From contig PHBQ01000008.1 of the NCBI GenBank assembly GCA_002841975.1, positions 1-52,909 of the forward strand: a stretch of 52,909 nucleotides of DNA, written 5' to 3'. A program made the translations under genes and the position numbers. The DNA is from Candidatus Cloacimonetes bacterium HGW-Cloacimonetes-1 (GTDB lineage: Bacteria > Cloacimonadota > Cloacimonadia > Cloacimonadales > Cloacimonadaceae). Shown piece by piece: positions 5,769 to 24,417 of this stretch. Each line of letters begins with the position of its first letter. The stretch's first letter is position 1. Below the pieces are notes generated by a model. The model saw only the letters and a list, made by a program, of their open reading frames with translations. It was not told the DNA's origin and did no database searches.

Positions 5769-8588
5769 ATGAGTGTATCAAAACCGACTACTATCAATAC
5801 CAATCATTTTTTGACCAAAGCCCATGTTGATTTGAACATTAATCCTGTAAGCAAATCTCTTTGGCTCGAAATACCAGCCTTTTGTCATCTTAATTGCAGT
5901 TATTGTTTTGCCAGTGCAGAGAGGTGTTCCCAGAACAAATCAGATGAATATTATCAGCGGTCACAAGAACAGCTTAATCGTTATTATTACAATATTTTAG
6001 ATCAGTTTGCAGCTAGTGAATATCAGGGGAAATACCTAGGTATTCCAGGGAATGGCGAGCCATTCCACCCAAGAAACCGAGATCTCACTATGTCTATTTT
6101 AAAAAGGGCAAAAGAGTTAGGCATTACCACAACTGTTTTCACAACAGCAGATGCGATATTTTATGATCTTCCAGGCGGAGAATACAAGAGACGCACTAGT
6201 GTTGATATTGATAAAAAATATGCAGAACTATTGTTTGATATGGATGTAATCCTTCTGGTTAAATTTAACTCACAAAAGGATGATATACAAGATGGTATTG
6301 TCGGACAACCTGGATACACGCAAGCGCGTAATAGGGCAATGAAAGCACTTTTTGATATGGGGTTCAACAAAGAAAGCCGTAGATTAGGTATTGTGACATC
6401 AATACTGGAAGAGAATAAACTAGAAATCATTAGTCTCTTTGAATATGCGCAAGAAAACAACTTAATCTTCGATTGTGATACCATTTTACCGAGAGGTAAT
6501 GGAAAATCATATAGGGATATACACAAACTCGGTTTGGAGGATGCAACTTTAAAAACGATTTATAAGGATTTAGCCGAAGCATCTGGAGACAATTTTGCTG
6601 CAGGAGGTTCTTACGTTGGAGTTGCATGTGATCGGGTCAAACATCATTTGTACATAGATATCGAAGGTAATGTATACCCATGTATTGGGTGTGTCGACAA
6701 ACCTTTTGATCTCATTCTCGGTAATGTGAATGAGAATACTTTGTTAGACTGTTGGAACAACCCGATCAGAAAACAGATACGAGAAGATTATGAAAAAATT
6801 GTTACAGGTCCTTGCTCATGGTGCAATAACTTTCAAGTATCGTGCTGGAGTTGTTTGGGACGGGTAGTAGAGAAATGTACCCGTGTTGACGACTATATTA
6901 CTCTCCATACAGAGGGGTGTTTTTGCCACAATTCTAATTACACTCGTTGGCTGAGAGCCTGTAGTAATTTTGTTCGAACATGTATTACTCTTCCCGGGAA
7001 GGAGGGTTTTAAAAATCTGCATAAAACAACAACAGGCCAATTAAAGAATTCTGATATGGAGATATTTTGGGAAAATGGGCTAAATGATCATCCTTTTTTA
7101 AAAGACATTACGTTTTCATCATTGCAAGTACTTGGATCCTCAAATTGGAGATTAATTGATCTTGAAAATGTTTTTTCTAATATAAGAGATTTTCAAGCCG
7201 TATTTCGGAGTATTCTCCCTAGAGTCTTGATACCCTCAATGTATAATCTTATCGAACAGTATGACGTTAAATTTGAGCCATCTTCAGACTTGAAAAACAT
7301 AACTACGGCTGATACGGGGAAATGGGGGCTGATCCAGTTTTGTCTATTTATGTTCTATATGCCATCAGAAAAGCAACGGTACTTTTATCGAACGCTTTCG
7401 TGCAATTCGCTCGATCCCCAAATATTATCATCTCCTCACTCAACATATGAGATAACAAAGAATGAGTTAGATCTAGATTCATGCAATGTAACATTTATCC
7501 ATAGGAATAGAAGAATTCTGTTACTACAAAGATGGGCAGAAGCCTATGAAAACGGTTTTGATAAAGCACCTTTATTACCTATGATAACAAATCTAAGCTC
7601 AGATTTTGAAGACAAGCATATCACCAGTTATGAGCTAATATTGTCAAACAGGCTGTTTGAGGCAGAAAGAAACAATATTGACAGAGATATATTAGTTCAA
7701 AAGAGACACGTATTATTTATCGGCGATCTACTGGACATGCCTGTAATACAGGATAAAGTAAATAGTCTTTCGGTATATTTTGATGCTATAGTGACAGATG
7801 ATAAAAAGTGGAATGATGTTGCTAAAGGTATATCAAGCACGATTTTTGCATCTAATCCTTCCGAAGTCGAAGCTCTCAGAACATTCTACGATGGAGCAAA
7901 CAATCAATTGTTTCCTACAAATGATTCGGGCACTGTTGAGCTCAATAATCTGATTGCGAAGGTCAATATAGTATTAAAGAACATACTATTGAAACACTCA
8001 AGAATTCAAAACAGTTTTCTAACCGATAAAGATCTGCATAATGAAGATATAAAGTTTATAATTGAACTATCGAAAAAGCACCAACATATTGAATACAATG
8101 GAGATATACCTGATTGGGCCAAAAGCAACAACCCTGTGGAACAGATACAGATATTAACGCGTCTCAAGGATCCCATCCTTTTTCAGTTTATCTTATTGTT
8201 TGTAAATGAAGAAATAAAGAGTCAATCTTCATCTATCAAGGCATTGAACTATTTCGTATGGCTGGGCTATTTGAAAAAAGTATTGAATATTGAAGCATAT
8301 ACCGTACTGCATACTCCAAACTTTTTATTGATGTGCCAGCAAGCTTTGAACATGCCATTTAAAAAGATCCCTTCAAGTGGAATGATTATCAGTAGCATAG
8401 GAAGACTACCTAAATCAATGATTGAAGAAAGTGAAGAGGTCTTTTCATCGATTCTTTATCCTTTAGAAGAGATCATTGGCGTTCAAACCGTATATCCAAC
8501 TGCACCATTATCTGAAACTGACACAAAAAATACTGGTAAACAACCAAAACTCAAAGTCATAATAAACCCTCCAATAAAGCATGAGTAG
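5769..8588 (+). CDS. Radical SAM/SPASM protein with large uncharacterised C-terminal region
   Basis: A 939-aa protein. The N-terminal radical SAM domain carries the CX3CX2C motif (C39, C43, C46 in CHLNCSYC) and a GNGEPF element (94-99) for SAM binding. A cysteine-rich SPASM-like region follows (C287, C305, C308, C328, C349, C352, C359, C362, C370), enough for one or two auxiliary 4Fe-4S clusters. SPASM enzymes usually modify peptides or anaerobically mature sulfatases. The remaining ~560 residues match no domain I know and may hold a substrate-binding or effector function. Start at 5769 is chosen for the AAAGGGG just upstream; an earlier ATG at 5739 overlaps the ATPase. No precursor-peptide gene is obvious nearby. 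It is convergent with the gene at 8610. Confidence 0.85.
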   Translation: MSVSKPTTINTNHFLTKAHVDLNINPVSKSLWLEIPAFCHLNCSYCFASAERCSQNKSDEYYQRSQEQLNRYYYNILDQFAASEYQGKYLGIPGNGEPFHPRNRDLTMSILKRAKELGITTTVFTTADAIFYDLPGGEYKRRTSVDIDKKYAELLFDMDVILLVKFNSQKDDIQDGIVGQPGYTQARNRAMKALFDMGFNKESRRLGIVTSILEENKLEIISLFEYAQENNLIFDCDTILPRGNGKSYRDIHKLGLEDATLKTIYKDLAEASGDNFAAGGSYVGVACDRVKHHLYIDIEGNVYPCIGCVDKPFDLILGNVNENTLLDCWNNPIRKQIREDYEKIVTGPCSWCNNFQVSCWSCLGRVVEKCTRVDDYITLHTEGCFCHNSNYTRWLRACSNFVRTCITLPGKEGFKNLHKTTTGQLKNSDMEIFWENGLNDHPFLKDITFSSLQVLGSSNWRLIDLENVFSNIRDFQAVFRSILPRVLIPSMYNLIEQYDVKFEPSSDLKNITTADTGKWGLIQFCLFMFYMPSEKQRYFYRTLSCNSLDPQILSSPHSTYEITKNELDLDSCNVTFIHRNRRILLLQRWAEAYENGFDKAPLLPMITNLSSDFEDKHITSYELILSNRLFEAERNNIDRDILVQKRHVLFIGDLLDMPVIQDKVNSLSVYFDAIVTDDKKWNDVAKGISSTIFASNPSEVEALRTFYDGANNQLFPTNDSGTVELNNLIAKVNIVLKNILLKHSRIQNSFLTDKDLHNEDIKFIIELSKKHQHIEYNGDIPDWAKSNNPVEQIQILTRLKDPILFQFILLFVNEEIKSQSSSIKALNYFVWLGYLKKVLNIEAYTVLHTPNFLLMCQQALNMPFKKIPSSGMIISSIGRLPKSMIEESEEVFSSILYPLEEIIGVQTVYPTAPLSETDTKNTGKQPKLKVIINPPIKHE

Positions 8589-8609
8589 CATTAATTATTC
8601 GGACCATTA

Positions 8610-9404
8610 TCATTTAGATCCCTGCAGTCTAGCCCTGGCATTAATAAAAGTCGCCAAATAATTCTCTAATGCTTCTTTTTTATCTGCATTTGTAATTGTA
8701 TATAGAATACTGATGCACTCATTAAGCGCAGTTAGGTCAAAACGTTCCAGCCCATTATCAATAATAGCCTGGTAATTATCTATCACTTCGTTAAATTCGG
8801 TTTTTGCATAAGAGTCTGTATCATCCATAAGCATCCTTTGGTACTGAATTCGAAGATATTTCGTATACCAGAGCAAGGCTTCTGCTGGCCTATCCTGACC
8901 ATTGAACAGTTCGAATAGACTATAATACGAAACTGCTGCCACGTAGAGGTTTTCTTTTTGATACTTTCTATGGAAATCCTGGACTTCCGATTCTAATAAT
9001 CCAAATCGCTTAAAAATTTCTTTTCTTTCCTTTCTTACTTTCTCATCAAGTTCTTTTTCCTTGCTGTTGAAATCCATCTTCATATATGTCCCAATCAACC
9101 CAAGAAATAGAATAACAATAAACGAAAATATTCCTGTTTGCATCGAAAGACTAGCTGAATAATTCCCTTGTTTTATTGCGTAATTTAAGGCGGTGCTATT
9201 ATCAGATGCCAGAGTTTCCAATTTACTGTTTGATAGAGATTTGACTGCATAGATAAGTTGTTGATTATTATTGCTGGAGATGACAATTAAGTACAGCGAA
9301 AGACTAAGTAATGCAAGACAAAACAATCCCATGATAACATCTACAACAAGATTTCTACTACCCTTTGTCATCGATTTTGTGTGATTTACCTTTGTGTTTT
9401 CCAT
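8610..9404 (-). CDS. Two-TM membrane protein of unknown function
   Basis: A 264-aa protein with two hydrophobic segments near the N-terminus (about residues 22-48 and 80-104) separated by a short polar loop. A cytoplasmic, largely helical C-terminal half follows (about residues 115-264), with features resembling a helical-repeat fold (YYSLFELFNGQDRPAEALLWY). I chose the ATG at 9404 because GGAGAAAT sits directly upstream; the longer frame has no ribosome-binding site. It is the last gene of the minus-strand run, 73 nt after the methyltransferase stop. It might anchor or sense for the kinase/HNH/methyltransferase module, or be independent. No family recognised. Confidence 0.65.
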   Translation of the reverse strand: MENTKVNHTKSMTKGSRNLVVDVIMGLFCLALLSLSLYLIVISSNNNQQLIYAVKSLSNSKLETLASDNSTALNYAIKQGNYSASLSMQTGIFSFIVILFLGLIGTYMKMDFNSKEKELDEKVRKERKEIFKRFGLLESEVQDFHRKYQKENLYVAAVSYYSLFELFNGQDRPAEALLWYTKYLRIQYQRMLMDDTDSYAKTEFNEVIDNYQAIIDNGLERFDLTALNECISILYTITNADKKEALENYLATFINARARLQGSK

Positions 9405-9477
9405 TATTTCTCCTTTAGTATTCAATAGGTATTTTACATACCTTAATAGACAAGTACAAAAGACCATGCATAGTCTG

Positions 9478-11034
9478 TTAACTTGGATTTCTTCTGTCTA
9501 CTCTTCTTGCAATGAGTTTCATTCTTGCAGCTTCTAGAATGCTTAGCTCACGTTGAGAAAACTTAGCTTTGTTGTCTACATACTTAATGACTTGATTCTG
9601 AGTCGAACTAGAAAGTAAATCCCGTTCATAATCATTAAAACTTAGATAATATATGGGAAGAGATTGGAACTCAGAGGGTACTAACTCTAGCACTCCTCCA
9701 CCATAGAATCTGCCCAGTAACTCAGCCATAACCAATGTGTAGGAATTATAGAAAGAATAGACGAAATCATAAATGCAAGTCTTTGGTTTAGGATAAACTA
9801 GATAAGCAGTATCTGTATAGTATAGACCGTCGGGATTCAGTAAGAGTTTTATGTTCCTATGTGAACGCTTGAAGAAAACCGCTGGTGCTGTTGCGATGTT
9901 TGGGACAGCATACCATACACATCTATGCCTCGCTTTGTAGCTCATTTGATATTCACGAGACTCTCCAAGTGCAATGTATTTTTTGACGGACATGTTTATT
10001 TGGTCACTATTAATGCCATTCAAATCAAGCAATAAGCATGGTCTGTTTCTAATCCTTAACTCCTCATGTGTTCTCCTTACCACTGAAGGAAAATCCTTAA
10101 CATATGATGAGCGATTAATTATCGGTTTAACATAATCGTAAGCTGCAAGACTTATCACCTCGGATTCAGGTAGGATAAAGAAATTGTTGTTGCCAGTTAC
10201 AATCCCTGGTTTCGTCGTAACATAATCACCAATAGGCTTACTCCTTTTACCTAACGTTTCTATACATGACAATTCTTCTTTTGTAAGAATTGATGAAGTC
10301 CATTTGTTGTTTCCTGCGCTCATCTTGTACCCATTGTTTTCACAGTACGTCGAATTCCCAGTATCGACTTCAAAAAGAGACTCTCTGAATCCGCTCAAGT
10401 TATGTTTCTTGTAGCACAGAATTCCAATAACATCCTGTAGAATATCTTTATAAATAGGCTCATTGAAGTGGATCAGTTCAATGTACTGGAAGTTATCCAT
10501 TAGATAACTTCGAAGCCTCTCTGCATATCTAACCTGAAGCAATTCGACAGGCAAAATATAACAAAGTACTCCATCTGCCGATAGCTTAGTTACACCGCTT
10601 ATAAGAAATGGTTCCCATATATTTGTTATACTGCGTTTCCCCAAATTACTTTCATTAATGATTAAATTCCCGAGCTTTACCTGTTCCCTGTTGAGTTTAG
10701 TATAAGATATGTATGGAGGATTTCCTATTACTAAATCGAATAAAAGATTGCACTCAAAATGGAATTCTAAATAGTCCTTATGCACAATTTTAAAACTATC
10801 TATGATACTTGAGGATTTTAGGAAATCAACTTCTTGTTCATTAATCTCGACGGCGGTGATATCGCACTTAGCATTTAACTTGATGATACTCTTAAGGAAA
10901 ACACCACTACCACAACTCGGTTCTAGTATCGAAATCCGTCTGTCCTTATGGAAATGAGATAGCGTTTTTTCCACCAAATAATCTGCAATAATTACTGGAG
11001 TATAAAACGCACCTAGTACTCTGTCATTAATCAT
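9478..11034 (-). CDS. N6-adenine DNA methyltransferase, TaqI/Eco57I-like class
   Basis: A 518-aa class I SAM-dependent methyltransferase. The N-terminus shows GAFYTP. Motif I is EPSCGSG (about residues 38-44) and the catalytic motif IV is NPPY (105-108), diagnostic of amino-methyltransferases acting on adenine. The C-terminal half (GIVTGNNNFFIL onward) resembles the target-recognition region of TaqI/Eco57I-type enzymes. No nuclease motif is seen within it. I chose the ATG at 11034, one base after the HNH gene's stop; a longer frame to 11148 would overlap that gene heavily. The likely role is protecting host DNA from the neighbouring HNH nuclease. Confidence 0.86.
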   Translation of the reverse strand: MINDRVLGAFYTPVIIADYLVEKTLSHFHKDRRISILEPSCGSGVFLKSIIKLNAKCDITAVEINEQEVDFLKSSSIIDSFKIVHKDYLEFHFECNLLFDLVIGNPPYISYTKLNREQVKLGNLIINESNLGKRSITNIWEPFLISGVTKLSADGVLCYILPVELLQVRYAERLRSYLMDNFQYIELIHFNEPIYKDILQDVIGILCYKKHNLSGFRESLFEVDTGNSTYCENNGYKMSAGNNKWTSSILTKEELSCIETLGKRSKPIGDYVTTKPGIVTGNNNFFILPESEVISLAAYDYVKPIINRSSYVKDFPSVVRRTHEELRIRNRPCLLLDLNGINSDQINMSVKKYIALGESREYQMSYKARHRCVWYAVPNIATAPAVFFKRSHRNIKLLLNPDGLYYTDTAYLVYPKPKTCIYDFVYSFYNSYTLVMAELLGRFYGGGVLELVPSEFQSLPIYYLSFNDYERDLLSSSTQNQVIKYVDNKAKFSQRELSILEAARMKLIARRVDRRNPS

Positions 11035-11035
11035 G

Positions 11036-11644
11036 TTATTTAAAGAAGTATGATTTGAGTTTGTTTTGTATACTGCGCCCTTGAGTGTATACATTCCACA
11101 GTTGATTCCATCGTCCAGCATCAAGGGAGCTACTATACTTCGAAACAACAGACTCTAGTTTATCCATGACATTATCGATTTGTTCGAGAGACCAAACGAT
11201 CCCATATTCAATTCTGAATAGCTTTAACTTCTTAATCATGTAAATAGCAACAGGTGTACATCCTATGATATTCCCATTAGAATCTCGGTCGAAGCATTCG
11301 CTGAATTCATCTGAGCAAGGGTCTAAATACCCATTATCATCTACGATGGTTTGGGTCGCTGAATCACTTACCCAATCATCACTTTTTGCTATGTTACATC
11401 TCGAACATGCATAAACCAGATTCGAATACTCGTTCTCAAGCAAGGGGAACCTTTTCCTCGGAGCGAAGTGATCAATATGATATTGTGCATTACCAATTGA
11501 TGCAATATCTTCCCGTGAATCACAGTACCCGCATCTGCGGTTAAAATCTAACCTAAGCTGCTGCCTATAATCTCTATAGTTGCTTCGTTTTGTTACACCT
11601 ATGGTTCTTACCGGTTTTGAATATCTAAACATAAGCCTACTCAC
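11036..11644 (-). CDS. HNH endonuclease
   Basis: A 202-aa protein with a zinc-ribbon HNH nuclease domain: C38xxC41, HIDH (56-59), N75 and C80xxC83 followed by N84 and K87 (CSRCNIAKSDDW). The arrangement is typical of metal-dependent DNA nucleases of the McrA/HNH class. The listed start is GTG at 11644, overlapping the receiver gene by 8 nt; ATG at 11632 is an alternative that keeps the whole domain. Its position between a receiver gene and an adenine methyltransferase suggests it is the cutting arm of a restriction system controlled by the kinase. That functional link is inference. Confidence 0.85.
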   Translation of the reverse strand: MSRLMFRYSKPVRTIGVTKRSNYRDYRQQLRLDFNRRCGYCDSREDIASIGNAQYHIDHFAPRKRFPLLENEYSNLVYACSRCNIAKSDDWVSDSATQTIVDDNGYLDPCSDEFSECFDRDSNGNIIGCTPVAIYMIKKLKLFRIEYGIVWSLEQIDNVMDKLESVVSKYSSSLDAGRWNQLWNVYTQGRSIQNKLKSYFFK

Positions 11645-12281
11645 CTTGTTCCAATTGAGAAACCAATTTATTCACTGATTCTATCCACTCATTTAATTCT
11701 TGCTGGATATAGTAATCTTTTAACTCTTTTGGTAACTCTAATGGGTGACTTTGAGATCTGCCTAAAATACTGTCACAATTCAGCAATTCTTCTCTTTCTC
11801 TGCTGCCCAGATACCCTTGTGTCCTCCACTTAGTCAATAACTCGTTATACTCAAACAAAGCTTTGGTATACTTGTTATTGGTATCTTCAATGTCTATTTT
11901 CATTTTTGAAATGAAGTCTTCAAATGATTGTTTATTATCATTATTAATAACAAGGCCTTTTTCAAAACTTGTCCAAACATCATCCGTTTCTTCATGGAGC
12001 TCATCAATGTAATGGGAAAACAAATAGACGGGTTTTATAGTATTTTCTTGCTTAATGGCTTTTCTTAAAACAACCCCGTTGTAGTTTATCCTCATTTTAT
12101 CATTCAAACGATAATCAATTATAACAACATCACTTGAAATTTTACATACTTCAATTACCATCTCATTAAGATCATTAATAGGTGCTAAATCAACTATCTC
12201 GAATTCATGATAATCATCGAACTCACTAACAAAAGTGCGACGCGTTTCTGGATCTTCGTCAATGAATAGTATTTTATACAT
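11637..12281 (-). CDS. Stand-alone receiver (response regulator) protein
   Basis: A 214-aa protein with an N-terminal phosphoreceiver domain. Visible are the acidic cluster D8-E9-D10 (FIDEDPE), the phospho-acceptor D56 (VVIIDYRL), a Ser on the beta-4 strand (YLFSH) and a conserved-position Lys (FEKGL, K108). The C-terminal ~90 residues are helical and show no DNA-binding motif I can name. AGGAGGG lies upstream of the start. The gene overlaps the kinase stop by 8 nt, so the two proteins should be a cognate pair. Output is probably by protein contact, perhaps with the next gene product, an HNH nuclease. Confidence 0.83.
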   Translation of the reverse strand: MYKILFIDEDPETRRTFVSEFDDYHEFEIVDLAPINDLNEMVIEVCKISSDVVIIDYRLNDKMRINYNGVVLRKAIKQENTIKPVYLFSHYIDELHEETDDVWTSFEKGLVINNDNKQSFEDFISKMKIDIEDTNNKYTKALFEYNELLTKWRTQGYLGSREREELLNCDSILGRSQSHPLELPKELKDYYIQQELNEWIESVNKLVSQLEQGE

Positions 12282-14823
12282 ACCAGCCCTCCTGTTTGGT
12301 GTTGATTGGGATATTCAGTTTTAATGAGAACCCGTCATTAGCCTTATCAATTTGTAGTGTTCCCTTGTAGTCATCTATTATACTTTTCAAAATCCACAAT
12401 CCCAAACCTGTCCCAGTTTGATTTCCTCTTTTATCGTGCTTTGTAGAAAATTCGTACTCGAATATTCTGTCTGTATCATCTATAGAGTGCGATAGCCCCG
12501 GCCCATTATCTTTATAAACTAACTCAATGACTGAGCTCTGCTGCCCGACTTCCATATCGATAGAGATCACTCTATCATAGGCTTGATCTTCATCAATATC
12601 AAAGGCATAGATTGAATTAATGATCAGATTATTGAAGACACTGTCTAGATCAATCGTAAAGCAACGCTTCTTTATTCCGCGATATTTTGATGTATTGATT
12701 GGTGTAACTAGTTGTATATCTCTACCTGCCAATATATCGCCCCAACTTCTTTTTAAATCGGCAAAATACAAGTACAAATCTTGAGATTTTCTGAGCCTTC
12801 TATCTTTCTTCAACTGAAACAATGAAAACTCGATCCAATGCTTCATGTTCTTTATATTTGATTCGAGATCTTGAACAATTACTAATGGATTCTTATAACT
12901 GCTCAAACCGAGGAGATTGCCTGGAATGTTACGTGCTAGATTCTTTTTGAGCTTCTCGATATTTCCCATTTTATCGCTTATTGATTTCAACTCGTGAGCC
13001 ATTGTAGCCATTACTAATGATGAACTTGATAGTCCACGGAGGATTGCGTTTTGTCCCAATACTGAATCATATTCGCTTTCTAATTGTCTATAAGCGTTAA
13101 TGATATTCCTTTCATTATCTGTTGTCCCTCCTCCTCTTATTAGGTTACTCGCTTTGCGCCTAATATCCTCGCCAAGGTTGTTCTTATAAAATAGCTTGTC
13201 TAGAGCAACTGATAGTGTTTGTCGATCGTTTTCGAAAATCTCGAGAATTTTTATTATAACTCTTTTTAATGCATCTGTGTGTTCGTTTTCTATGAATCCT
13301 TCTCTGCTGGACTTGTCATCTATGTAACGGTTTTCAGATTTAGACAATTGTACATATCCAGATATCTGGTTCGGTCTTACTTGCCATTTCCCAGATTTAC
13401 TAGAAGATGGTGCTGCTGGGCTCTTAGCTGCTCTTGCACCAAGACCTAGCCAATCAAATGAAGAGCCTTCAGGTTCGCCATAGGGTCTGATTTTAAATCT
13501 ATCCCTATAAATTTTTATCCCCCCATAGTTCTTAAACCAATGTTTACGTTCATGTGACTTGATCGGATAATGATAGAATTTATCTCTGTCGCTCTTTGTA
13601 TCAGTATTCTTCATAAAGAAGTAAACAAATTTAAAGTCTCCTAGGCTACGAAACAACTCAAAGTCTAATTTATCAGAATGAAAAAGCCTAGATAACTGTA
13701 AAGTAGTATGATAGAATTCCTTTTTGAAACTTTCAATTAAAAATTGGGGCTTAGTAGATAGTTCAGGATAGCCAAAAATTTCTTGATATTCGTCTATTCT
13801 CTCAATATCGAATTCTTTCCTAATCATCTGGAACTCTATTTCTGGCTCAATGCTATAAGGATCTGTGCCTTTAGCATTATAGTTTGCTATAACTTGATAA
13901 TCGAAGTCATCGCAATTGTAAGGAAGTATCTCGAAGTCATCAAGGTGTTTGGAGAACAGATAAATATTAAACTTATCCTCACTATCATCCACCTCTGGCG
14001 GGATCAGAGTTCCAAGGCTTGTTACAAGATTTTTGATACTCTTCCCAGACCATTTATCTCTAAGTCCCGATATCTGAAGGATAGTCCCTGTGGAAAATGA
14101 CTTTATTGAGTAATCATACTTATCAAGATAGCTATTCACTGCACTTTTCAAATCTATGTCACTCTCATCAATTTCAGCATACATTGAAGTAATGTTAGCA
14201 TTGATATCACTTATGGCATCCCAATTCATAAACCATCTATATAGTTGTCTATCCTGACGTGAGTAAGTGAATAACTCTGTTAAGCTTCCTAGCCTATCAA
14301 GGGCAAATCTTCCGATTCCTTTCGACCCAACTTTTATTCTATTTTTGCTCGAAATCATGTTTTCAACTTTATCACTAGTCCCGATAGTCATCCACTTTGT
14401 TTCTAGAGTGTGCAATGTCATTCCACAACCGTTATCGATGACTATTATTCTATTATACTGATTGAAAACTGCCCATAACCTGACGCGAATATCCTCATCA
14501 TAGGAATTACTGATACTCTTTGAATTGGATTTTTGTGCTTTATTTTCAAAAGCCTTAAGATAAAAATCATCCTGCTCACTGCTATATTCATACAGTTCAG
14601 AGATTAAATTGCTGTCCTCTCGTGAAAGATCTTTGTATTCTGTATTAGATATCCGGTATGGGATATCATCATACTTAATATCAAATATTATTATTGCGTT
14701 CTTTGCATCAGCATCATAGCAGTTCTTAACCAATTCAATGAGCGCGCTATCAGCGTTTGCAACGTTCTCTTTCCCAAGAAGATGAGATGTTCTTGCGGAA
14801 ATGTTCCATTGAACTTTTGCCAT
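12274..14823 (-). CDS. Histidine kinase-like protein with two GHKL ATPase domains
   Basis: An 849-aa soluble protein with two ATPase modules of the GHKL superfamily. The N-terminal one (HATPase_c_3, MutL/Hsp90/MORC style) shows E30 and N34 (IELVKNCYDADA), the DNGCGM loop (130-135) and GSKGIGRFAL (166-175). The C-terminal one is histidine-kinase-like: an H-box near H610 (MATMAHELKS), an N-box at about 730-742 (FNNLIINSIYAF), DNGPGL (772-777) and GTGLGL (804-809). No transmembrane or classical sensory domain is seen; the region between them (about 200-600) is unfamiliar. AAGGAG precedes the ATG. The next gene encodes the receiver. The double architecture suggests that ATP- or DNA-dependent clamp-like sensing is coupled to phosphotransfer. 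Confidence 0.85.
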   Translation of the reverse strand: MAKVQWNISARTSHLLGKENVANADSALIELVKNCYDADAKNAIIIFDIKYDDIPYRISNTEYKDLSREDSNLISELYEYSSEQDDFYLKAFENKAQKSNSKSISNSYDEDIRVRLWAVFNQYNRIIVIDNGCGMTLHTLETKWMTIGTSDKVENMISSKNRIKVGSKGIGRFALDRLGSLTELFTYSRQDRQLYRWFMNWDAISDINANITSMYAEIDESDIDLKSAVNSYLDKYDYSIKSFSTGTILQISGLRDKWSGKSIKNLVTSLGTLIPPEVDDSEDKFNIYLFSKHLDDFEILPYNCDDFDYQVIANYNAKGTDPYSIEPEIEFQMIRKEFDIERIDEYQEIFGYPELSTKPQFLIESFKKEFYHTTLQLSRLFHSDKLDFELFRSLGDFKFVYFFMKNTDTKSDRDKFYHYPIKSHERKHWFKNYGGIKIYRDRFKIRPYGEPEGSSFDWLGLGARAAKSPAAPSSSKSGKWQVRPNQISGYVQLSKSENRYIDDKSSREGFIENEHTDALKRVIIKILEIFENDRQTLSVALDKLFYKNNLGEDIRRKASNLIRGGGTTDNERNIINAYRQLESEYDSVLGQNAILRGLSSSSLVMATMAHELKSISDKMGNIEKLKKNLARNIPGNLLGLSSYKNPLVIVQDLESNIKNMKHWIEFSLFQLKKDRRLRKSQDLYLYFADLKRSWGDILAGRDIQLVTPINTSKYRGIKKRCFTIDLDSVFNNLIINSIYAFDIDEDQAYDRVISIDMEVGQQSSVIELVYKDNGPGLSHSIDDTDRIFEYEFSTKHDKRGNQTGTGLGLWILKSIIDDYKGTLQIDKANDGFSLKLNIPINTKQEGWYV

Positions 14824-14881: not shown

Positions 14882-15559
14882 TTACACATCCAACCCCGCC
14901 CCATATTCCTTCAGCCACTGCACTTGTTTCTGATAGTCCGGCAGTATCTTATCCACTTCATTCCAGAAATCTTTGCTGTGCCGTTTATGCTCGAAGTGCG
15001 CCAGCTCATGCACGATCAGATAGTTGATCACGCTCACTGGTGCCATCATGATCTTCCAGTTGAAATTCACCTTGGGTCGCTGCACTGAGCATGATGCCCA
15101 TCGGTTCTTTAGCTCGATAATGGCCACAGCTTCCACTTTCAATCCCATCATCTCAGCAAAGCGATGCACACGCGGTTCTATGAACTTCTTGCCACGCTGT
15201 CTGTAGAATTCCTTGAACATTGCTTTCAGCTTATCCTCAGAGCCCTCGGGAGCATAAAAGTGCCTTCCCTTGAACTGTATGCCATCCACCTCGTCACTAT
15301 ATTGCAGATAGTAGTTTCTACCCAGATATAGGAAGGATTGCCCGTTTACCAGTTCCCGTTTGATGGCTTTCTCATTCAGCAATGCCCGTTTTGCCTGATA
15401 TTTGTAAATTTTATACTCGTTTTGTTTGAGGAGGTTTTGTACCTCAAGTTCAGTAGTTCCATCGGGAACGATCACCGTAATGGAGCTATCCCTCTCAATA
15501 TAGATTGATGCTGTCTTGCGCTTGCTGTGTTTGATTACTACTTTGTAATCCAGACTCAT
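14882..15559 (-). CDS. YgjP-like (DUF45) zinc metallopeptidase
   Basis: A 225-aa protein with the YgjP-like pattern HELAH (184-188) followed by H194 and FW (HKRHSKDFW), giving three zinc ligands and a catalytic Glu. The WASCS motif upstream of the zinc site is also typical. Family members are very often encoded directly beside hsdR in type I restriction loci, as here, where the start overlaps the hsdR stop by 4 nt. Their exact role in restriction is not established; processing or regulation of the restriction complex is a plausible guess. Confidence 0.88.
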   Translation of the reverse strand: MSLDYKVVIKHSKRKTASIYIERDSSITVIVPDGTTELEVQNLLKQNEYKIYKYQAKRALLNEKAIKRELVNGQSFLYLGRNYYLQYSDEVDGIQFKGRHFYAPEGSEDKLKAMFKEFYRQRGKKFIEPRVHRFAEMMGLKVEAVAIIELKNRWASCSVQRPKVNFNWKIMMAPVSVINYLIVHELAHFEHKRHSKDFWNEVDKILPDYQKQVQWLKEYGAGLDV

Positions 15560-18500
15560 GAGCCTTTCACCTCGGCTTCTCGTTTATGAGCCAGGCTGAT
15601 CAGTTCTGCGGTCAGCTTGGCTGCCACAGCTTTGAGGGGTTCTATGGTGCAATATTCAAGCTCATCCCGGATATCGCCTTCCAGCCTTCTGCGCTCATTG
15701 GGCTTCTGCCAGAAATTGGGTATTGAGAGAGATTCCTTGATTCTGGCATATATGAATTCTGATATCTTTACAGCCTCTACAGCAGTATCGGTGTTACCCT
15801 TGTCAATTCCCGCCTCCATCAGCATAAGCTCCAGGAATGGCGCAATAGGAGCATCAACAATGCTGTCTTCCGCCTTGCGTCCTTCTCCGATCTCTTCTCT
15901 CAGCTTGGTAAGCTCTTCGATAATCCTATCCCAGTGTTCTTTGTAAGAATCAAGAATTCTCTGCAGCCTCTCGTGGAAACCTGTATAAAGTGCCGGGTCT
16001 TTATCCATATTCACTTTGATGTGCCAGCGGATGGCATGCTCCATCTCGGATGCCTTAGCTTTTCCGGTTTTATTATGATCTTTCAACGTTTTGGGGAAAT
16101 CATCCGAGAGCAGTTTCACAGGGGCAATCTTGGGATTGATACCTTCTGAGATCAGATACTTGTCAATAAGCTTGCGAACCTTTGCCCCAGCCCATTTCAA
16201 ATCAAGCGTGCCGTCATGGTAGCGGTTGCGCATCCTCATCAGGATATAACCCAGTCGCTTTGCCGGGACGTAGTAGTCTCTTGCCAGGGATGCATTAAAG
16301 AGCAGCTCCAAGCTATCAAAGAATGCTTTGATATAGGTATCAAACTGCGCTCGGAATTTCACATCTGCACCAAGCTGAAGGCAGTTCTCCACCAGTTCCC
16401 ATTCCTCGTCTTTATCTTCGATCTTCTGTTTGATAAAGGCTTCGATCCTGATAACTCCCTTTTCTTCAAAGAGATGAATCAATCTTCTAAAGCGGGATTC
16501 CAAGACCGGAATCTCCTTGTCCAGCCCTCTGAAATATGCACTCAGGTCTTCCAGCTCCTGCACATCAGTATCAGTGAAGATCGCCAAAGCCTCTTTCAGA
16601 TGCGATGCCACTCCAAAATAATCCACCACAATGCCATGCTCTTTTACATAGCCGGATTTCATTACCTTGGTGCGGTTGACCCTAGCAATTGCCTGCATCA
16701 GCTTATGTTCTCTCAGGTTCTTATCAAGGTACATCACCTGTTCAATCGGTGCATCAAAACCCATCAGAAGCCTGTCACAAACACAGAGGATAGCTACTCC
16801 ACTCTCCGGTTTGTTATAGTCAAAGTCCTTTTTAAAGCTCTCTACGGCATCGATATCCAGAGCTTGCTTGCGCGCCAGAGATACATAACCCGGCTCATTG
16901 TTATCCATCATAGTAACTACGGCACAGATCTTGACAAATCTCATCTGCTTTAGCAGTTCTTCATCCCGCTCAGCTTCAGGTTTTGTCTCTTCACTCAAAA
17001 TCAACCCTTTTAGCGCATTTTCCAGCTCATACTTATACCGGCATGCAGCTATGATAGAACTCGCCACCACCTGCCCCTTAAGGCCGTTTTGGAGGATTTC
17101 CTGCGTATAGTGAGTCATGATATCTTCCGAGATTGCTTTGATCCTCTCCTTGGATTCCAAATATGCCATCTCTGTCCCATAGCGTTTTTGAATCTCCAAG
17201 CGCTCAGCTTCCGTCCTCTCCCGAAACATATCCTCAAATTCTTTTTTGAACAGTTCTGAATCAGTAAGCTTGTCCTGACTGGTTCTGCCGATATAAAGAA
17301 TATCCACTGTGGCTCTGTCTGCCACAGAGTCGTTCATTTTGTAGACATCTATGAAGTTGCCGAAGCGTTCATGGGTCTTCTGTTTATGCCTTTCCGTGAG
17401 TAATGGTGTTCCTGTAAATGCGATCTTCACAGCATTCGGAAAAGCCAGGAAGAGGTTGTCTCCCATTTCACCCCCCTGATCCTGATGAGCTTCGTCTATC
17501 AACAGCAGTATTCTCTCGCTGGTATTCAGCTCCGGAAATTCTTCATACTGTGGGATCACTCCGGCTGCCAGCAGAGATTGAGCCGAGATGGCATTATTGA
17601 TCAGGAACTTATGTAGCATCACCATGTTGAGGTTTGAGCTGGTGTTCTTTAGCTTATCAAGGTCTCGCTTATGTTGTATCATAGTAACGCTTTCGCCACT
17701 ATAGCCTGCAGTGTTGGATAGCTGATCTTCCAAATCCAAACGGTCATTCACCATGATGACCTTGTAGTCTTTTAAGTCTTCAGAGTCTCTTAGCTTCTTG
17801 ATCAAAAATACCATCGTCAGGGATTTACCTGAGCCTTGGGTATGCCAGATCACTCCGCTACGTTCAAATGGAGTTTTACCCATTCGCAAGCGATTCAATA
17901 TCTTGCCTACTGCCCGGTATTGCTGATAGCGGCAAACGATCTTTACCTGTTCACCTTTCTTGATTTCCATAAACAGCGTGAAGTTTTTAAGGATATCCAG
18001 CAGAATGGCTTTATTCAGCATCCCCTGGATCATTACTTCTTGTCGCTCTTCATCCGGAGAGACCTGGATAGTCTTATACTCCTCAGGAAAGATGTCTTTC
18101 CAGTTCAGGAAGTGATCAAACTCTCCGGTGATCGTGCCAAATCTGGCTTCAGAGCCATGTGTAACGATGCTGAAGAGATTGCTGTGAAATAGCTTCTCCT
18201 CACCCTCTTTGATGCCATAATCATCCACTCTCAGGTTCGCATAGCGGTTGAGCTGAATGAATGCCTCACTCAGTGGTTGTGCCACATCCATATCTTTGCA
18301 TTCTACCACAATGATCGGTAAGCCATTGATGAAGAGCACAATGTCCGGCACAATCGCCTGTCTGCTGGCACCGGGAGTCTCGATCTTGAACTGGTTAATG
18401 GCAATGAAGCTATTGAGTTCGGGATTGGCATAATCTATCAAGCGCACCTTGGGGTTTTGCTCTCCGGTAAGCTCATTCATATCAACTGTAGTATTCTTGG

Positions 18501-18798
18501 TCAGCAGTTCATATACTACCTGATTTGCCTTTAGCAGTCCAATGCCGGGGTGCCAGGTCAGCTCAGAGATAACTGCATCAAGCTGCTTAACCGTAAGCCA
18601 GCTTCTGCCATCCTCAGTAAGATTGATCCGCTTTAAAGCATTCTTAAACTCCTGCTCCAGGATCACTTCCCTGAAAGAAGCCCTTCTGCTGATACTGGGA
18701 TCAAAAGGAGTAAATCCAGTTCCCTGATCTATCACTTCCCAGCCAAGTTGACTCAGCTTATCCAGGAACGGGCGTTCGACATTGGTGTATTCAGACAT
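15556..18798 (-). CDS. hsdR: Type I restriction enzyme R subunit (HsdR)
   Basis: A 1080-aa motor-nuclease subunit. The N-terminal PD-(D/E)xK nuclease is visible as PDIVLFINGLPIIVVECK (D152, E166, K168). The superfamily 2 motor has Walker A HTQGSGKS (319-326), DEAH (435-438), FTGTPLL and the late helicase motif QAIARVNRT. A long helical C-terminal domain would bind the HsdM/HsdS core. Its length and motif order fit intact HsdR proteins. Its ATG overlaps the DUF262 protein stop by 1 nt and its stop overlaps the peptidase start, so it lies within one operon. Known action is ATP-driven DNA translocation and cleavage remote from unmethylated sites. Confidence 0.96.
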   Translation of the reverse strand: MSEYTNVERPFLDKLSQLGWEVIDQGTGFTPFDPSISRRASFREVILEQEFKNALKRINLTEDGRSWLTVKQLDAVISELTWHPGIGLLKANQVVYELLTKNTTVDMNELTGEQNPKVRLIDYANPELNSFIAINQFKIETPGASRQAIVPDIVLFINGLPIIVVECKDMDVAQPLSEAFIQLNRYANLRVDDYGIKEGEEKLFHSNLFSIVTHGSEARFGTITGEFDHFLNWKDIFPEEYKTIQVSPDEERQEVMIQGMLNKAILLDILKNFTLFMEIKKGEQVKIVCRYQQYRAVGKILNRLRMGKTPFERSGVIWHTQGSGKSLTMVFLIKKLRDSEDLKDYKVIMVNDRLDLEDQLSNTAGYSGESVTMIQHKRDLDKLKNTSSNLNMVMLHKFLINNAISAQSLLAAGVIPQYEEFPELNTSERILLLIDEAHQDQGGEMGDNLFLAFPNAVKIAFTGTPLLTERHKQKTHERFGNFIDVYKMNDSVADRATVDILYIGRTSQDKLTDSELFKKEFEDMFRERTEAERLEIQKRYGTEMAYLESKERIKAISEDIMTHYTQEILQNGLKGQVVASSIIAACRYKYELENALKGLILSEETKPEAERDEELLKQMRFVKICAVVTMMDNNEPGYVSLARKQALDIDAVESFKKDFDYNKPESGVAILCVCDRLLMGFDAPIEQVMYLDKNLREHKLMQAIARVNRTKVMKSGYVKEHGIVVDYFGVASHLKEALAIFTDTDVQELEDLSAYFRGLDKEIPVLESRFRRLIHLFEEKGVIRIEAFIKQKIEDKDEEWELVENCLQLGADVKFRAQFDTYIKAFFDSLELLFNASLARDYYVPAKRLGYILMRMRNRYHDGTLDLKWAGAKVRKLIDKYLISEGINPKIAPVKLLSDDFPKTLKDHNKTGKAKASEMEHAIRWHIKVNMDKDPALYTGFHERLQRILDSYKEHWDRIIEELTKLREEIGEGRKAEDSIVDAPIAPFLELMLMEAGIDKGNTDTAVEAVKISEFIYARIKESLSIPNFWQKPNERRRLEGDIRDELEYCTIEPLKAVAAKLTAELISLAHKREAEVKGS

Positions 18799-20570
18799 TA
18801 TTGCAAGGCATCCTTTAACTGCTCATCAGTCAGTTTTATCCCATAGAAACCAAGAGTTCTAACCAGCATTTCTTCATGGTTCTTCTTCAGGTCTTTCAAC
18901 TCCCAAGTTGGATAGTCTTTCATTATTCTGACAGAGTTGCTGAACAACTCGATGTTTCCCTTGAAGTATTTATCCCTTTTCTTTGAATACTCGTAGTTGC
19001 TTTGAGCAGTGTTTTTCCTGCGAGATAGAAAGATTAGGTTTCCCAGTCTGTTTGTCCACTTTTCTCTATCATCATCAGAGAAATCTGTGCACCATTGGCT
19101 GCTTAGTTCAGGAGTTTGGGGAAGGATATGTTCAATGCTGATTAACTCTGGAGGATTGAGTTTGGTTGTATTCCCAAGGTAAGACATATCTATCTTAAGT
19201 AGGATATACTTTGCGAATTTTCTCCCATAGATACTGCCGGTAAGCACTCTTGCTAAATCATCTTTATTGAAATCAAACACCGTCGATGCTAAAAGTGCTT
19301 TAGTATCTGAACTGCTCTCAATTTCTTTGATAATCAGATTTACATTCTCGACTCTGTTCGTAGGTGATAAACTGGTTATCCAATCTGCCGAAAACTTCAG
19401 TTCCAGTTTCGTTAGAAATTCAAGGATATCTTGTGTTTTGTACTTATCATAATATCTCAATGCGGGAGCAATCCAATAATCAGCTTCAAATCCTTTCATC
19501 ATAAGAGTTACTTGATTAGCAATATCAAAACACTTGCTCACATTGAAGTTATCATTTACCAACAGAGATTGGTAATGATTAAAGTACGTTTTTATGTAAT
19601 CAAATGTGCCTTTCCCCTTTGTTAACAAAGCAGGCTTGCTAACATACTCCTTTGTAGATTTGTTATAGTCCCTTGGGGCATAGATGTTTTCTTCAAACTC
19701 TTTTAACAGGTTGTACCCAGCTTTTTGTTTAACTAATATGGTCCTTAAATGAGAGAGAAAGTTATCAAAATCTTCAGCAAAGTATTCTTCTATGCCTTCC
19801 CACATTTTTGCGTACTCAGTACGTGTTGTATCATCAGTGATCTTGGCTAAGTTTTCTACCTTCAGAATGTCGCTATTGCGCAGCTTGACCCCTCGATTGT
19901 TCATGACAGTAAACAAGTGAAACGCATCTTCCAACTCTTCAGCAGCTACATATATCATCAGCACATTAGACCGCAGGAATTTAAAAAATTCATCTATTGA
20001 GCGACCATTGCTAAAGTAAGCATGTATCGTAAGGATAGCATTGGACATATTCCTTATCGAAATATCTTCGTCTTTGTCCTCAGCCATCCTTTTTAGCTCA
20101 GTAGATTGCATAGTGGATTTATAAGGTTTGATGTAAGTTAGCACAAAATCCCTAACTTTATTCCTGATATCAAATACAATTCTGAGCCTTTCAGGTTTGT
20201 TATCATCGGGTATTGCCATTTGATAAACAGCGTCTTTACAAATCTTAATTCTGGATTCATTGTCAGCGGGTGTGAGATCTCGAATGACTGAAGTGATCAA
20301 AAAAAGTGTAGTTAATCTCTGTTGCCCATCAAGCAGATCATACTCTGTAAATTTCATAGAGCCCTCAATCTTGCTGCTCTTTTTCAAGACCATAGAGCCA
20401 AGAAAGTACTGGGAATCCGGGTTAGACTGATTCGCCTGATAAATATCATCAAGAAGCTCAACCACTTGATCAGTTTCCCATACATAAGGTCTTTGATATT
20501 CTGGTATTCTGTACCATCGTGTGAACACGTCCATAACAAATAGTTTTTCGCTTTCAATCTTCTGTGCCAT
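18798..20570 (-). CDS. DUF262/DUF1524 (GmrSD-like) nuclease inside the type I locus
   Basis: A 590-aa protein. The N-terminal DUF262 domain shows IPEYQRPYVW (22-31) and DGQQRLTT (81-88), a ParB-like NTPase motif set. The C-terminal DUF1524 domain carries the HNH-type core IEHILPQ (about 479-485), NRLGNLIFLS, and the trailing N/K/R residues (SNYEYSKKRDKYF). The architecture matches single-chain GmrSD, which cuts modified DNA, and BrxU-like proteins. GGAGGA for this gene lies over the hsdS stop, 3 nt away, so it belongs to the operon. It could add a type IV activity against phage that escape type I restriction through DNA modification. Confidence 0.88.
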   Translation of the reverse strand: MAQKIESEKLFVMDVFTRWYRIPEYQRPYVWETDQVVELLDDIYQANQSNPDSQYFLGSMVLKKSSKIEGSMKFTEYDLLDGQQRLTTLFLITSVIRDLTPADNESRIKICKDAVYQMAIPDDNKPERLRIVFDIRNKVRDFVLTYIKPYKSTMQSTELKRMAEDKDEDISIRNMSNAILTIHAYFSNGRSIDEFFKFLRSNVLMIYVAAEELEDAFHLFTVMNNRGVKLRNSDILKVENLAKITDDTTRTEYAKMWEGIEEYFAEDFDNFLSHLRTILVKQKAGYNLLKEFEENIYAPRDYNKSTKEYVSKPALLTKGKGTFDYIKTYFNHYQSLLVNDNFNVSKCFDIANQVTLMMKGFEADYWIAPALRYYDKYKTQDILEFLTKLELKFSADWITSLSPTNRVENVNLIIKEIESSSDTKALLASTVFDFNKDDLARVLTGSIYGRKFAKYILLKIDMSYLGNTTKLNPPELISIEHILPQTPELSSQWCTDFSDDDREKWTNRLGNLIFLSRRKNTAQSNYEYSKKRDKYFKGNIELFSNSVRIMKDYPTWELKDLKKNHEEMLVRTLGFYGIKLTDEQLKDALQ

Positions 20571-20573
20571 AAT

Positions 20574-21842
20574 CTATTCCTCCATAGTTAGTTTGATTCT
20601 TATTCTACCAGTTAAGAGATCGTGCATCAGGCCTTGTTTTAAGGATAAGTTTTTTACAAGAGTCATTTCTTCCTTTTGTATTGTCTTATCCATGTAAATC
20701 AACACATGAGATATCGCTTTTTGCTCATTGTGATCAATTGCAATAGGAAGCATGATTTTCTCAATCTGTGATTTTGTTATCTCCGCAAATGTTGAACCAC
20801 TGCCGAGCCTTAGAAATAACCCAACATTATGAAGCATGTTGTAATATTGATATTCTGCATTTTGCCCTTCTGTAAGGTTGAAAGATTTACATCCTTGATT
20901 TGTAGTAAACGGTTCCAGCCCAATAGCAAAGTATCCTATAGGAGCTCTAGAAGACATAACAATTGAGTTCACAGGCAGTAGTGTTGCAGAGCAACTCATC
21001 ATTCCTTTTGTTGTGATTCTTCTATCGGTATCTGAGAAATACTGATGCTGTATTTTGCTCATATCCGCTGGGGTTATCCAGTTTATGTCTCCATTCCAAT
21101 ATTCTTCATTATTGGTTGTGGGTGTTGATCCAGAGACAATCTTCGAAAAATCTTTGATAAGCCTCACTTCCCATTCCTTGGGTATCCATCCTAAATTTGT
21201 CTCTTTGTATAGCTCCGGAGCTTCTTGATATGATGGTCTCAATTTACCGGTTTTCACATCGATGCCACGAGTAAACAAATCCTGCAACATCCCAGCTTTG
21301 ATTGCTTTGTACTTTTCAATCGCAGCCTCGGTCATTTCAATCACTTTATCAACTGTGCTGAGGATAGTGGCAATTTTGTGCTGTTCTGCTCTATCTACTG
21401 GTATTAAGAAACTTAATCTCTCGATATTCGCCTTTGAAATCTCCATGAAGGTCGAACCACTACCATACCTTTTAAAGAGTTCTGTATGAAATAAAAAGTT
21501 GTAATAGTGGTATTCTGGGTCATGTTTATCATTGAATACAAAAGTCTTACATCCTTGGTTTGTAGTGAAATCCCTTGTCGGTAAAGCAAAATAGCCGATA
21601 GGTGCACGTGAGGACATTACTACGTTTCTCGCTGGAATAATTGTGGTTGAAGCAGACCTCTGCCCTAGAGAACTTATCTTCCGCTCAGATGAATGGATGA
21701 ATCTTGATGTCGTGCTACTAAGATCATTAGGGGTAACCCACATGATGTCGCCATCCCAGTATTCTTTTATATTTGTCGCTGGGGTTGCTCCGCTGACTAT
21801 TGAAGCAAACTCTGGTATATTAAGGTTTTTCCACTCACTCAT
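20574..21842 (-). CDS. hsdS: Type I restriction specificity subunit (HsdS) with two related recognition domains
   Basis: A 422-aa DNA-recognition subunit. The two target-recognition domains (about 1-150 and 226-380) are clearly related to each other. Both contain IVSG(A/S)TP, EYW(D/N)[23 protein letters not shown] and a GSGSTF(M/A)EI segment. Each is followed by a helical spacer ([23 protein letters not shown] and the equivalent at the C-terminus). Such a duplicated layout predicts two identical or near-identical half-sites, that is, a nearly palindromic bipartite target. It overlaps hsdM by 8 nt. No frameshift or inverted partial copy, as found in phase-variable hsdS loci, is present. Confidence 0.94.
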
Positions 21843-24417
21843 ACCCGAGTTCCTTGAGATAATTTGCCAATTCAGAGACTGCTGTGTCTCTTGCTTTTAG
21901 GATACTATGCAGAGGCTGATCATACTTCTCCCACAAGCTTTCCAGGGCTGCCCGGAATTGTCTGCTATATTGGATCAGGTAATCATTCACTTTAGCATAG
22001 AGAGTCTTTTCCCAACGTGCCAGGATCAGTACTTCTGCTTCCGCTTCGCTGATCTTGCCTCTTGCCTGCTCCACCAGTTGCTCTCTAAGGTCTTTAATCT
22101 CTTTGATCTTCTTGCGGTTATCCTTCAGATCCTTTTCCATATCCAGATGTTTAGTGATACGCTTTCCCTGCTCTTCAATTATCTTAGCAAGTTCCGTTGC
22201 ACGGGGCATGAGTCTCTTGATCTCAATCTCGATATCTGCGTAGGTATCACCGCTTTTCTTAAGTGCTTTTATCTGCTTCTCTTTGTTTTTAATGTCCTTG
22301 CTGATCTCTTTTAGCTCTGCACCCAATTCTTTGATGCTTGCCTTCACTGCTGCCAGTTCATCTTTGGGAAACACATCGTAATCTTCCTCAGTCCAGGCAT
22401 CTTCTTCCAGATCGTTCACTTCTGCAAACAGGGCTTCAAGTTCAGCCCGACGGGCTTCGCATTCATTCAGCTCTTTAATCACCTCCGGAAACTGGCTCTG
22501 CAATATCTCCTCATCTGGTATCAGTTCAGCATTCCATCCACTGGCTGCCACGCTGCGCAGGTCATTGAATATATCGCTCCAGAATCCAGCAAATGCCCCA
22601 CGGCATTTAAACTCATCCAGAATGCCGAGAGAGCTTATTTTAGCAGTTATCGTGGCAGAAAAGGCATGATATAGGTCATAAACATTTCGCTGCTTGGGAA
22701 GTGCTTCCAGTTTGGGTTGGTGCTCATCCCACCATACTTTCAAAGCTCTCATGTATGTCTCATGTTTGCGTTTTATCTCATCAGCTTCATCCAGATAGCC
22801 TTTGATCGCTTCCTTGTCACTGATGATTGTAGTAAACTTCAGACAGTTGTCTCTATCATTGGTAAAAAGCTGTTCTCTGATGCCCGGGTAGTTATCCCAA
22901 TAGTGTTTAAGGAATTCAACTTCCGAAACTGGAATACCGCCTTGCAGATGGGCTTTCACGTCATGAGGCTCTGCCGGAGGGCTATTGTCCACATATCTTC
23001 TGATGTTGCAATTGAATTCTTCTGCTTCCAATTCTGCATGGCTTACTTTTCTGCTGTAGGCAGCAAGTTCCCGCTTGATTCGATAGACATAGGTGATCTT
23101 TTCGATGTCTTCAGGACGCAGGATATTCTGCACCTTGCCAACTTTAAACTCATGATCGGCATTGGTGAAAAGCACTTCTTTACGGGTTGAAGCTCCGGTT
23201 CTATTGATGATCAGGATGCAGGCAGGAATACCGGTTCCGTAAAAGAGAGCTGGAGGCAAGCCAATAATGGCTTCCAGAAATCCTTCTTTGATCAGCCATT
23301 CCCGCATTCTGCGTTCTTCACCACCCCGGAAGAGAACCCCATGCGGCATTATGACAGCCAGGCGTCCTGTGGATTTCAGAGTGCTGAACATGTGCTGCAC
23401 AAACATGAAATCAGCTTTGCCTTTCACTGGCATCCAATATCGGTAACGCTCCTTGAACTTCATTCCGTCTGTAGAATAGTTTTGGGAAAAGGGAGGATTG
23501 GCAATCACGATGTCAAAACGCTTCAGCTCTCCACCTTCCACATGTTTAGGTTCCATCAGAGTGTCACCGTTCTCGATCTGAGCATCCAGGATATTGTGAA
23601 ACAGCATATTGAGTTTACACAAGCCCCAAGTAGTACCATTCTTTTCCTGTCCGTAGAGAGTCATGTTTCGGGCAGTGCCGTATTTACTCTCAACGTAATT
23701 GTATGCTTCTATCAGCATGCCACCAGAGCCGACTGCCGGATCGCAAATCTCAGCATCTTGTGCAGGATCGAGGATATTTACCAAGAGCTTTACCACGGTT
23801 CTGGGAGTATAGAATTCTCCACCTTTCTTGCCTGCGCTATCGGCAAAGTATTTGATCAGGTATTCATAGGCAGAACCTAAGAGATCTGGGAATTCCAGAT
23901 TGTCATCGGTGAGAACTACTTTATCAAAGTGAGTAATGATCTCCACCAGGTCTTTATCAGTGATGCGCTTGTTATTCTTGCCAAAGGTCTTGTTGAAGTC
24001 GATGGGTTTCAATACCCCTTCCAGAGTATCGCTATTGCTGTCCTCTAGAGCTTCAAAGGCTTTCTTTAGTTCATCTCCGATTTCTTTCTTCAAATGCCGG
24101 ATATTCTCCCATCTGGCACGAATGGGCACAAAGAACTTGTAGCTGGCTTCACTTTCTAAACCTGCTTCCAGTGCCTCTCCGCTTACTCCCCTTTTCTCCA
24201 GAGTTGCCTTGCGATTGATTCTTTCGATATTGAACAGGTCATTCACCCGTTTCAGGAAAAGCATGGCGATCACGTATTCTTTGAATTCTGAAGCATCCAT
24301 GTTTCCCCGCAGGGATTCACATGCCTCCTCCAGAAAGCGTTCTAGCCACGATAATGATAGTTTATGAGCCATTTTCAAATACTCCGGTGTTATATCATTC
24401 TCTTGGTAATTAGCCAA
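21835..24417 (-). CDS. hsdM: Type I DNA methyltransferase subunit (HsdM)
   Basis: An 860-aa modification subunit. The N-terminal HsdM helical domain (about 20-160) is followed by [10 protein letters not shown] (200-209), the SAM-binding motif DPAVGSGG (226-233) and the catalytic NPPF (307-310), typical of N6-adenine methylation. It is longer than usual HsdM (about 500-550 aa) because of a ~300-residue C-terminal region (roughly 540-860) that is mostly charged coiled coil. This fits the long HsdM subfamily often seen with DUF45 peptidases and DUF262 proteins. It is 88 nt downstream of a small HTH gene. Confidence 0.95.

Follow-up and report, generated by a model that had tools for sequence, protein, structure and literature searches.

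Kinases with two GHKL ATPase modules encoded beside restriction-modification (R-M) genes have already been published (PMC8011034). In that work, Bellieny-Rabelo et al. (2021) described kinases with the domain order HATPase_c_3, HEF_HK and HATPase_c that are paired with Response_reg_2 receivers near R-M genes, and they suggested that the N-terminal ATPase is the sensor of the HEF_HK kinases (PMC8011034). GHKL ATPases of the MORC and paraMORC kinds were reported in R-M operons by Iyer et al. in 2008 (PMC2292703), and for the Shedu protein VcSduA, which has a GHKL N-terminus, a clamp has been proposed to control the defence nuclease (PMC12137116). In addition, PtuAB of retron-Eco7 depletes tRNA-Tyr (PMC11555353), and an unvalidated DefensePredictor prediction with HATPase and REC domains may or may not be the family analysed here (PMC13092281).

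In the stretch of DNA analysed in this work (the window, 52,909 nucleotides), a double-GHKL kinase gene heads a cassette of about 5.3 kb, in the order kinase, receiver, PtuB-like HNH nuclease and Eco57I-family adenine methylase (Table 1). The kinase and receiver genes overlap by 8 bases, as do the receiver and HNH genes, and the methylase gene begins 4 bases after the HNH gene when read from the conserved Met, which is codon 40 of a longer ORF (9478-11148) and the consensus start of class B. The initial annotation of this DNA described neither the conserved nuclease and methylase partners nor the published family, which has the same domain order and the same proposal of an N-terminal HATPase_c_3 sensor (PMC8011034). 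On balance, and with somewhat better than even confidence, we read the four genes as a phosphorelay-gated restriction-modification (anti-invader) cassette.

Table 1. Features of the four-gene cassette (positions in the window)
Feature	Position	Strand	Evidence
Eco57I-family N6-adenine DNA methylase	9478..11031	-	M_Eco57I_C E 1.7e-27; Eco57I E 1e-15; PADLOC type II MTase E 3e-118
Methylase NPPY motif	10711-10722	-	
HNH nuclease of PtuB/TIGR02646 kind, 202 aa	11036..11644	-	Pfam HNH E 5e-8; PADLOC PtuB E 3e-16; PDB PtuB 8ee7 E 2e-4
Response-regulator-like protein, 214 aa (receiver 1-115, phospho-acceptor D56; helical C-terminal domain 117-213)	11637..12281	-	REC match, conservation, model
Double-GHKL sensor kinase, 849 aa	12274..14823	-	Uninterrupted ORF, Pfam, conservation, predicted structure
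N-terminal GHKL (Bergerat) ATPase domain, residues 1-275	13999..14823	-	HATPase_c_3, conservation, Hsp90 N-domain profile, MORC/Hsp90 fold
N-terminal ATPase motifs: E30/N34 N-box, D130xGxG, G166xKGIGR lid	within 13999..14823	-	
Transducer/S5-like (Hsp90 middle-like) domain, residues 276-548	13180..13998	-	Conservation; residues 10-543 match MORC and Hsp90 N+M structures
Coiled-coil/DHp region, residues 569-676	12796..13119	-	H610 in 77/77, HK853 phospho-His alignment, modelled helices
H610 codon	12994-12996	-	Within DHp region
C-terminal CA (HATPase_c) domain of histidine kinase, residues 677-842	12298..12795	-	Pfam E 6e-17; ZraS/HK853 fold

The initial annotation had placed two GHKL ATPase modules in one polypeptide, the first with the E30/N34, DNGCGM and GSKGIGR signature and the second with histidine-kinase boxes and H610, and had seen no sensory domain of a known kind. 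All of this holds. Both domains score above the curated Pfam cut-offs (HATPase_c_3 at residues 104-212, E 8e-13; HATPase_c at residues 725-839, E 6e-17), and the Pfam search returned no known sensor domain besides the two ATPase modules. The signature motifs were located at D130-N-G-C-G-M135 and G166-S-K-G-I-G-R172, together with the C-terminal N, G1, F and G2 boxes. Conservation was followed in an alignment of 77 rows, that is, the window kinase and 76 relatives (29-37% identical to it) drawn from plasmids, the window's phylum, 80 genome loci and viral contigs. E30, N34, D130, G132 and G134 are kept in all 76 rows that cover them, the 77th being truncated, and the lid residues G166, K168, G169, G171 and R172 and the C-terminal N732, N736, G774, G804, G806 and G808 are kept in 77/77. 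H610, which a profile alignment places on the phospho-His of HK853 ('HEL'), is likewise present in every row and is followed by Glu in 48 rows and by Asp in 29. As judged from the alignment, conservation on this scale far exceeds what chance matches to motifs would give; the two ATPase modules are genuine and strongly constrained.

In the transducer region, R440, R446, P447, a DWLxL motif and R507 of the stretch D-K-S-x-R507-E-G are invariant, and R507 stays invariant after more distant double-GHKL kinases are joined to the alignment. This stretch is similar to the catalytic-arginine loop of Hsp90; judged by its motif, R507 would be the catalytic Arg/Lys finger. In its N-terminal half, the kinase carries both parts of the split clamp-ATPase active site in full, namely the Bergerat fold and the transducer/middle domain.

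Structure comparison splits the AlphaFold2 model of the kinase, a monomer built on the 77-row alignment (mean pLDDT 83.7, pTM 0.81), cleanly into two modules. Residues ~10-543 match MORC3, MORC2, SMCHD1 and the N plus middle domains of Hsp90 with Z scores of about 15-17.5 over 280-307 residues, for example MORC3 (5ix2, Z 17.5) and Hsc82 (Z 16.8). At the level of sequence, too, a profile made from the N-terminal half matches the Hsp90 N domain (E 1.4e-5). Residues ~591-842 match the DHp-CA kinases ZraS (Z 16.4) and HK853 (Z ~16), and the DHp helices are modelled at residues 569-616 and 646-669. The H-box His, the N, G1, F and G2 boxes and the DHp-CA fold of a two-component histidine kinase are all present, and autokinase activity is predicted. 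A non-GHKL fold of the N-terminal region, or loss of the H-box His in orthologues, had been set beforehand as grounds for abandoning the two-module reading; the fold is that of MORC and Hsp90, and the His is kept throughout the alignment, so the reading stands.

By model and structure comparison, the window kinase contains a MORC-type GHKL plus S5 ATPase module. It resembles the prokaryotic MORC and paraMORC proteins in having GHKL and S5/transducer domains beside nucleases and methylases and in its structural match to MORC2/MORC3, paraMORC being compared by the general GHKL plus S5 architecture; unlike them, the family has a histidine kinase as its C-terminal part, and the cassette has no helicase gene. 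The MORC signature GhXhhpXXRhl of the S5 domain is absent in 77/77 rows, and MORC in the strict sense was rejected on that account; a near form with the Arg one residue later occurs in 64/77. With Hsp90/HtpG, the kinase shares the N plus middle fold (Z ~15-17), the N-domain profile match and an S-R-E motif with an invariant Arg, whereas the C-terminal dimerisation domain of Hsp90 is replaced by DHp-CA.

The likeness to the HEF_HK/Response_reg_2 pairs extends to the N-terminal HATPase_c_3, a DHp-like helix with His-Glu/Asp, the C-terminal HATPase_c, the soluble nature of the kinase, the adjoining receiver-like gene and the strong R-M link; 54/54 window-family kinases have HATPase_c_3 in the N-terminal and HATPase_c in the C-terminal position. 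On the other hand, HEF_HK (PF19191) gave no match in the window kinase at E 1, and none at the kinase gene in a genome search at E 10, and it does not appear in the lists of families that the 54 kinases match with E of 1 or less. Similarly, Response_reg_2 (PF19192) gave no match in the genome at E 10 and is missing from the corresponding lists (E of 1 or less) for 74 receivers. Since neither model matches the window family, membership in HEF_HK/Response_reg_2 as defined in Pfam was rejected. The partners also differ: C5 methylases, Vsr and HNH_2 are stressed for the published pairs (PMC8011034), whereas the window family has a fixed PtuB-like HNH nuclease and an Eco57I-family adenine methylase. 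Within the open-access PMC literature, the window family thus appears to be a variant of the published double-GHKL architecture that lies outside the HEF_HK/Response_reg_2 models.

With profiles seeded from the window proteins, all four genes were found at 74 of 80 genome loci. Four of the six incomplete loci lie at contig ends, one is interrupted by a stretch of N within the receiver gene, and one, L091, has a split kinase ORF and was left out of the complete-cassette count. The assembly gap in the receiver lies in L063 near 2500-2760, and a kinase split into two overlapping ORFs is seen in L091 (509-3140) and in L095/L103. At most loci, adjoining cassette genes overlap or sit a few bases apart. 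The hosts belong to at least nine phyla, mostly Bacteroidota, and the four-gene set is also carried by plasmids of Bacteroides, Salipiger and Deinococcus; ten near relatives come from viral contigs, and the set is complete in nine of them, the other stopping at the contig edge after the HNH gene. Because the methylase gene comes first at six loci (methylase, kinase, receiver, HNH), the kinase, receiver and HNH genes form the constant core. The 112 ORFs that immediately flank the cassettes contain no family with more than three occurrences, so a fifth conserved partner was rejected and the four genes are taken to be the whole unit. Promoter and terminator scans gave nothing beyond chance, and no close E. 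coli copy was found with the Enterobacter cassette as DNA query, a search reaching down to about 65% DNA identity.

Directly upstream in the window and on the same strand (14882-24417, -) lie genes for a YgjP-like metallopeptidase, type I HsdR, a GmrSD-type (DUF262) protein, HsdS and HsdM; the cassette therefore adjoins a GmrSD-containing type I R-M operon, which we count for the restriction reading. Upstream of hsdM, the product of 25359-26141 (+) ends in an abortive-infection domain (Abi_C). On the other side, immediately downstream of the methylase, the protein of 8610-9467 (-) has hydrophobic, probably membrane-spanning stretches; it matches no Pfam family above cut-off, and none of the other cassette loci encodes a relative. 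A Mu-type transposase (Mu-transpos_C) followed by a TniB-like ATPase is encoded at 69-2438 (+). TniB/TniQ genes also lie near the cassette in L008, and TnsE or TniQ occurs among the flanking ORFs; these Tni/Tns neighbours suggest Tn7-like carriers of the cassette. At 38270-46585 (+), an ORF of 2771 aa with laminin-G/lectin-like domains and PMP-like repeats probably encodes a large surface protein. In L011, on a Chlorohelix plasmid, a related double-GHKL kinase (8001-10433) stands beside genes annotated as cysteine desulfurase, DUF4007 and PAPS-reductase-like; from this Dnd-like (phosphorothioation) setting, the control module may serve other DNA-modification systems.

According to the initial annotation, the kinase could report closure of a clamp by phosphorylating a receiver, and the gene next to it, with its 8-base overlap, encodes one. 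The REC match of the 214-aa protein (E 0.002) is below the Pfam cut-off; its model (pLDDT 91.4) consists, by structure search, of a REC fold followed by a three-helix C-terminal part. The phospho-acceptor Asp is kept in 74/74 receivers, and the acidic pair, the T/S and the K in at least 90% each, so that the residues of a cognate receiver are all present. Full-length matches to RcsB/VraR are poor (rmsd 8-14) and carried by the receiver domain. Neither the model nor the fold search revealed a DNA-binding domain, and an output by regulation of transcription was rejected for this reason.

The methylases fall into two main classes, with 43 and 30 members, plus a pair, and the classes match different PADLOC type II families. 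When the classes are mapped on the kinase tree, at least 11 changes are needed, versus 25.5 +/- 2.1 for shuffled labels; the methylase is therefore partly inherited and repeatedly swapped. Individual loci give the same picture: L027 and L069 share 94% identity in the methylase, 43% in the kinase and 51% in the HNH protein; L086 and L037 share 86% in the methylase and 30% in the HNH protein; and L086 and L070, with 63% identity in the kinase and 61% in the HNH protein, have methylases of different classes. The methylase is exchangeable, and the kinase, receiver and nuclease stay together. Inside each class, conservation is about equal in the target-recognition and catalytic halves, so the whole family may have one target site in common; an HNH protein with a fixed site of its own is hard to reconcile with the swaps unless the two classes recognise the same target.

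These results bear on whether the cassette is a plain type II R-M system whose HNH protein and methylase act on the same site, with an accessory two-component system serving only to regulate expression or copy number. All complete cassettes encode an HNH nuclease and an N6-methylase together, as a type II system does; HNH nucleases and Eco57I-type methylases are common in such systems, and the conserved target-recognition halves would allow one shared site. Nevertheless, the receiver lacks a DNA-binding domain, and every uncut locus has both the kinase and the receiver, which are tied more tightly to the HNH gene than the methylase is; we hold this explanation to be rather improbable. In PADLOC 2.0.0, no model covers the kinase (weak partial type II REase matches) or the receiver (no match).

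In the alignment of its relatives, the HNH protein has invariant C38, H59, N75, C80, N84 and K87, which include putative metal and zinc ligands. As proposed for Shedu VcSduA, a GHKL clamp would control a nuclease, but VcSduA has clamp and nuclease in one polypeptide and is described without a phosphorelay (PMC12137116). By its sequence matches, the HNH protein is nearest to PtuB of Septu and retrons; it is of the same kind as the nuclease of Septu and type I-A retrons, whereas the cassette lacks the PtuA-like ABC ATPase or reverse transcriptase of those systems, and the partner of the HNH protein is the receiver protein.

Detocs is a defence system built on a two-component relay. With this precedent, the main rival to our reading is an abortive-infection module in which infection is sensed by the clamp kinase and the receiver then sets free the PtuB-like HNH protein, which would act not as a restriction enzyme but as a general toxin (a tRNase or non-specific DNase); the methylase would be an antidote, self-signal or invader sensor. 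The kinship with PtuB, the depletion of tRNA-Tyr by PtuAB of retron-Eco7 (PMC11555353), and a nuclease core that stays unchanged while two methylase classes swap, as expected if the nuclease is not site-matched, all favour such a module; yet no uncut cassette lacks a DNA methylase, the hallmark of restriction, and we regard abortive infection as unlikely.

Partial correlations of distances connect the kinase DHp region with the receiver (0.31) and the receiver C-terminus with the HNH protein (0.36), and no part of the core correlates with the methylase target-recognition domain. Because these correlations follow gene order, recombination between adjoining genes could produce them; that caveat aside, they count for phosphorelay-gated restriction. 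The top receiver-HNH pairs in residue coupling (receiver 170-189, HNH 144-146) are weak, with Neff about 38, and were set aside as support for partner contacts.

MutL and MORC close on DNA. In the phosphorelay-gated restriction cassette that we favour, the kinase would dimerise through its DHp helices, and its N-terminal Hsp90/MORC-like arms would bind ATP and close transiently, probably on DNA or another invader-linked target. The state of the clamp would set the autophosphorylation of H610, and the phosphoryl group would pass from H610 to D56 of the receiver protein. Finally, the helical C-terminal domain of the receiver would engage the HNH protein and switch the nuclease on (or release it), and the methylase would mark host DNA, which keeps the system off or protects that DNA. 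The input would thus be the N-terminal ATPase and the output the HNH nuclease. We infer ATPase activity, clamp closure, phosphotransfer and nuclease control from conservation and gene context; the gene linkage, the general-base Glu with the ATP motifs and transducer, and a receiver with no output domain save its helical C-terminus count for this scheme.

The N-terminal clamp might instead work as a MutL-like matchmaker, activating the nuclease by ATP-driven contact, with the histidine-kinase part as a dimerisation scaffold only and without phosphotransfer. The MutL/MutH and paraMORC precedents (PMC2292703) and the MORC/Hsp90-like fold of the N-terminal module agree with it, but a scaffold needs neither H610 nor the N and G boxes nor the receiver Asp, all of which stay the same across at least nine phyla; we hold a pure matchmaker to be very improbable. 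The invariance of the His and Asp over these phyla argues for real phosphotransfer.

In the phosphorelay-gated restriction cassette, it is possible, at less than even confidence, that an Hsp90/MORC-like ATP clamp, dimerised by its histidine-kinase core, examines DNA and, via His-to-Asp phosphotransfer, permits cutting by an HNH nuclease that is not site-specific, with the exchangeable methylase only marking self; this would be a distinct class of restriction. To our knowledge, no restriction system has been shown to be under histidine-aspartate phosphorelay control. The methylase exchange raises the question of how the nuclease knows its target. If the cassette is under such control, GHKL clamps, two-component signalling and restriction, which have been studied separately, would be tied together. 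The cassette is small, mobile and widespread, so the role of prokaryotic MORC/paraMORC-like ATPases could be addressed with single-residue mutants in one construct.
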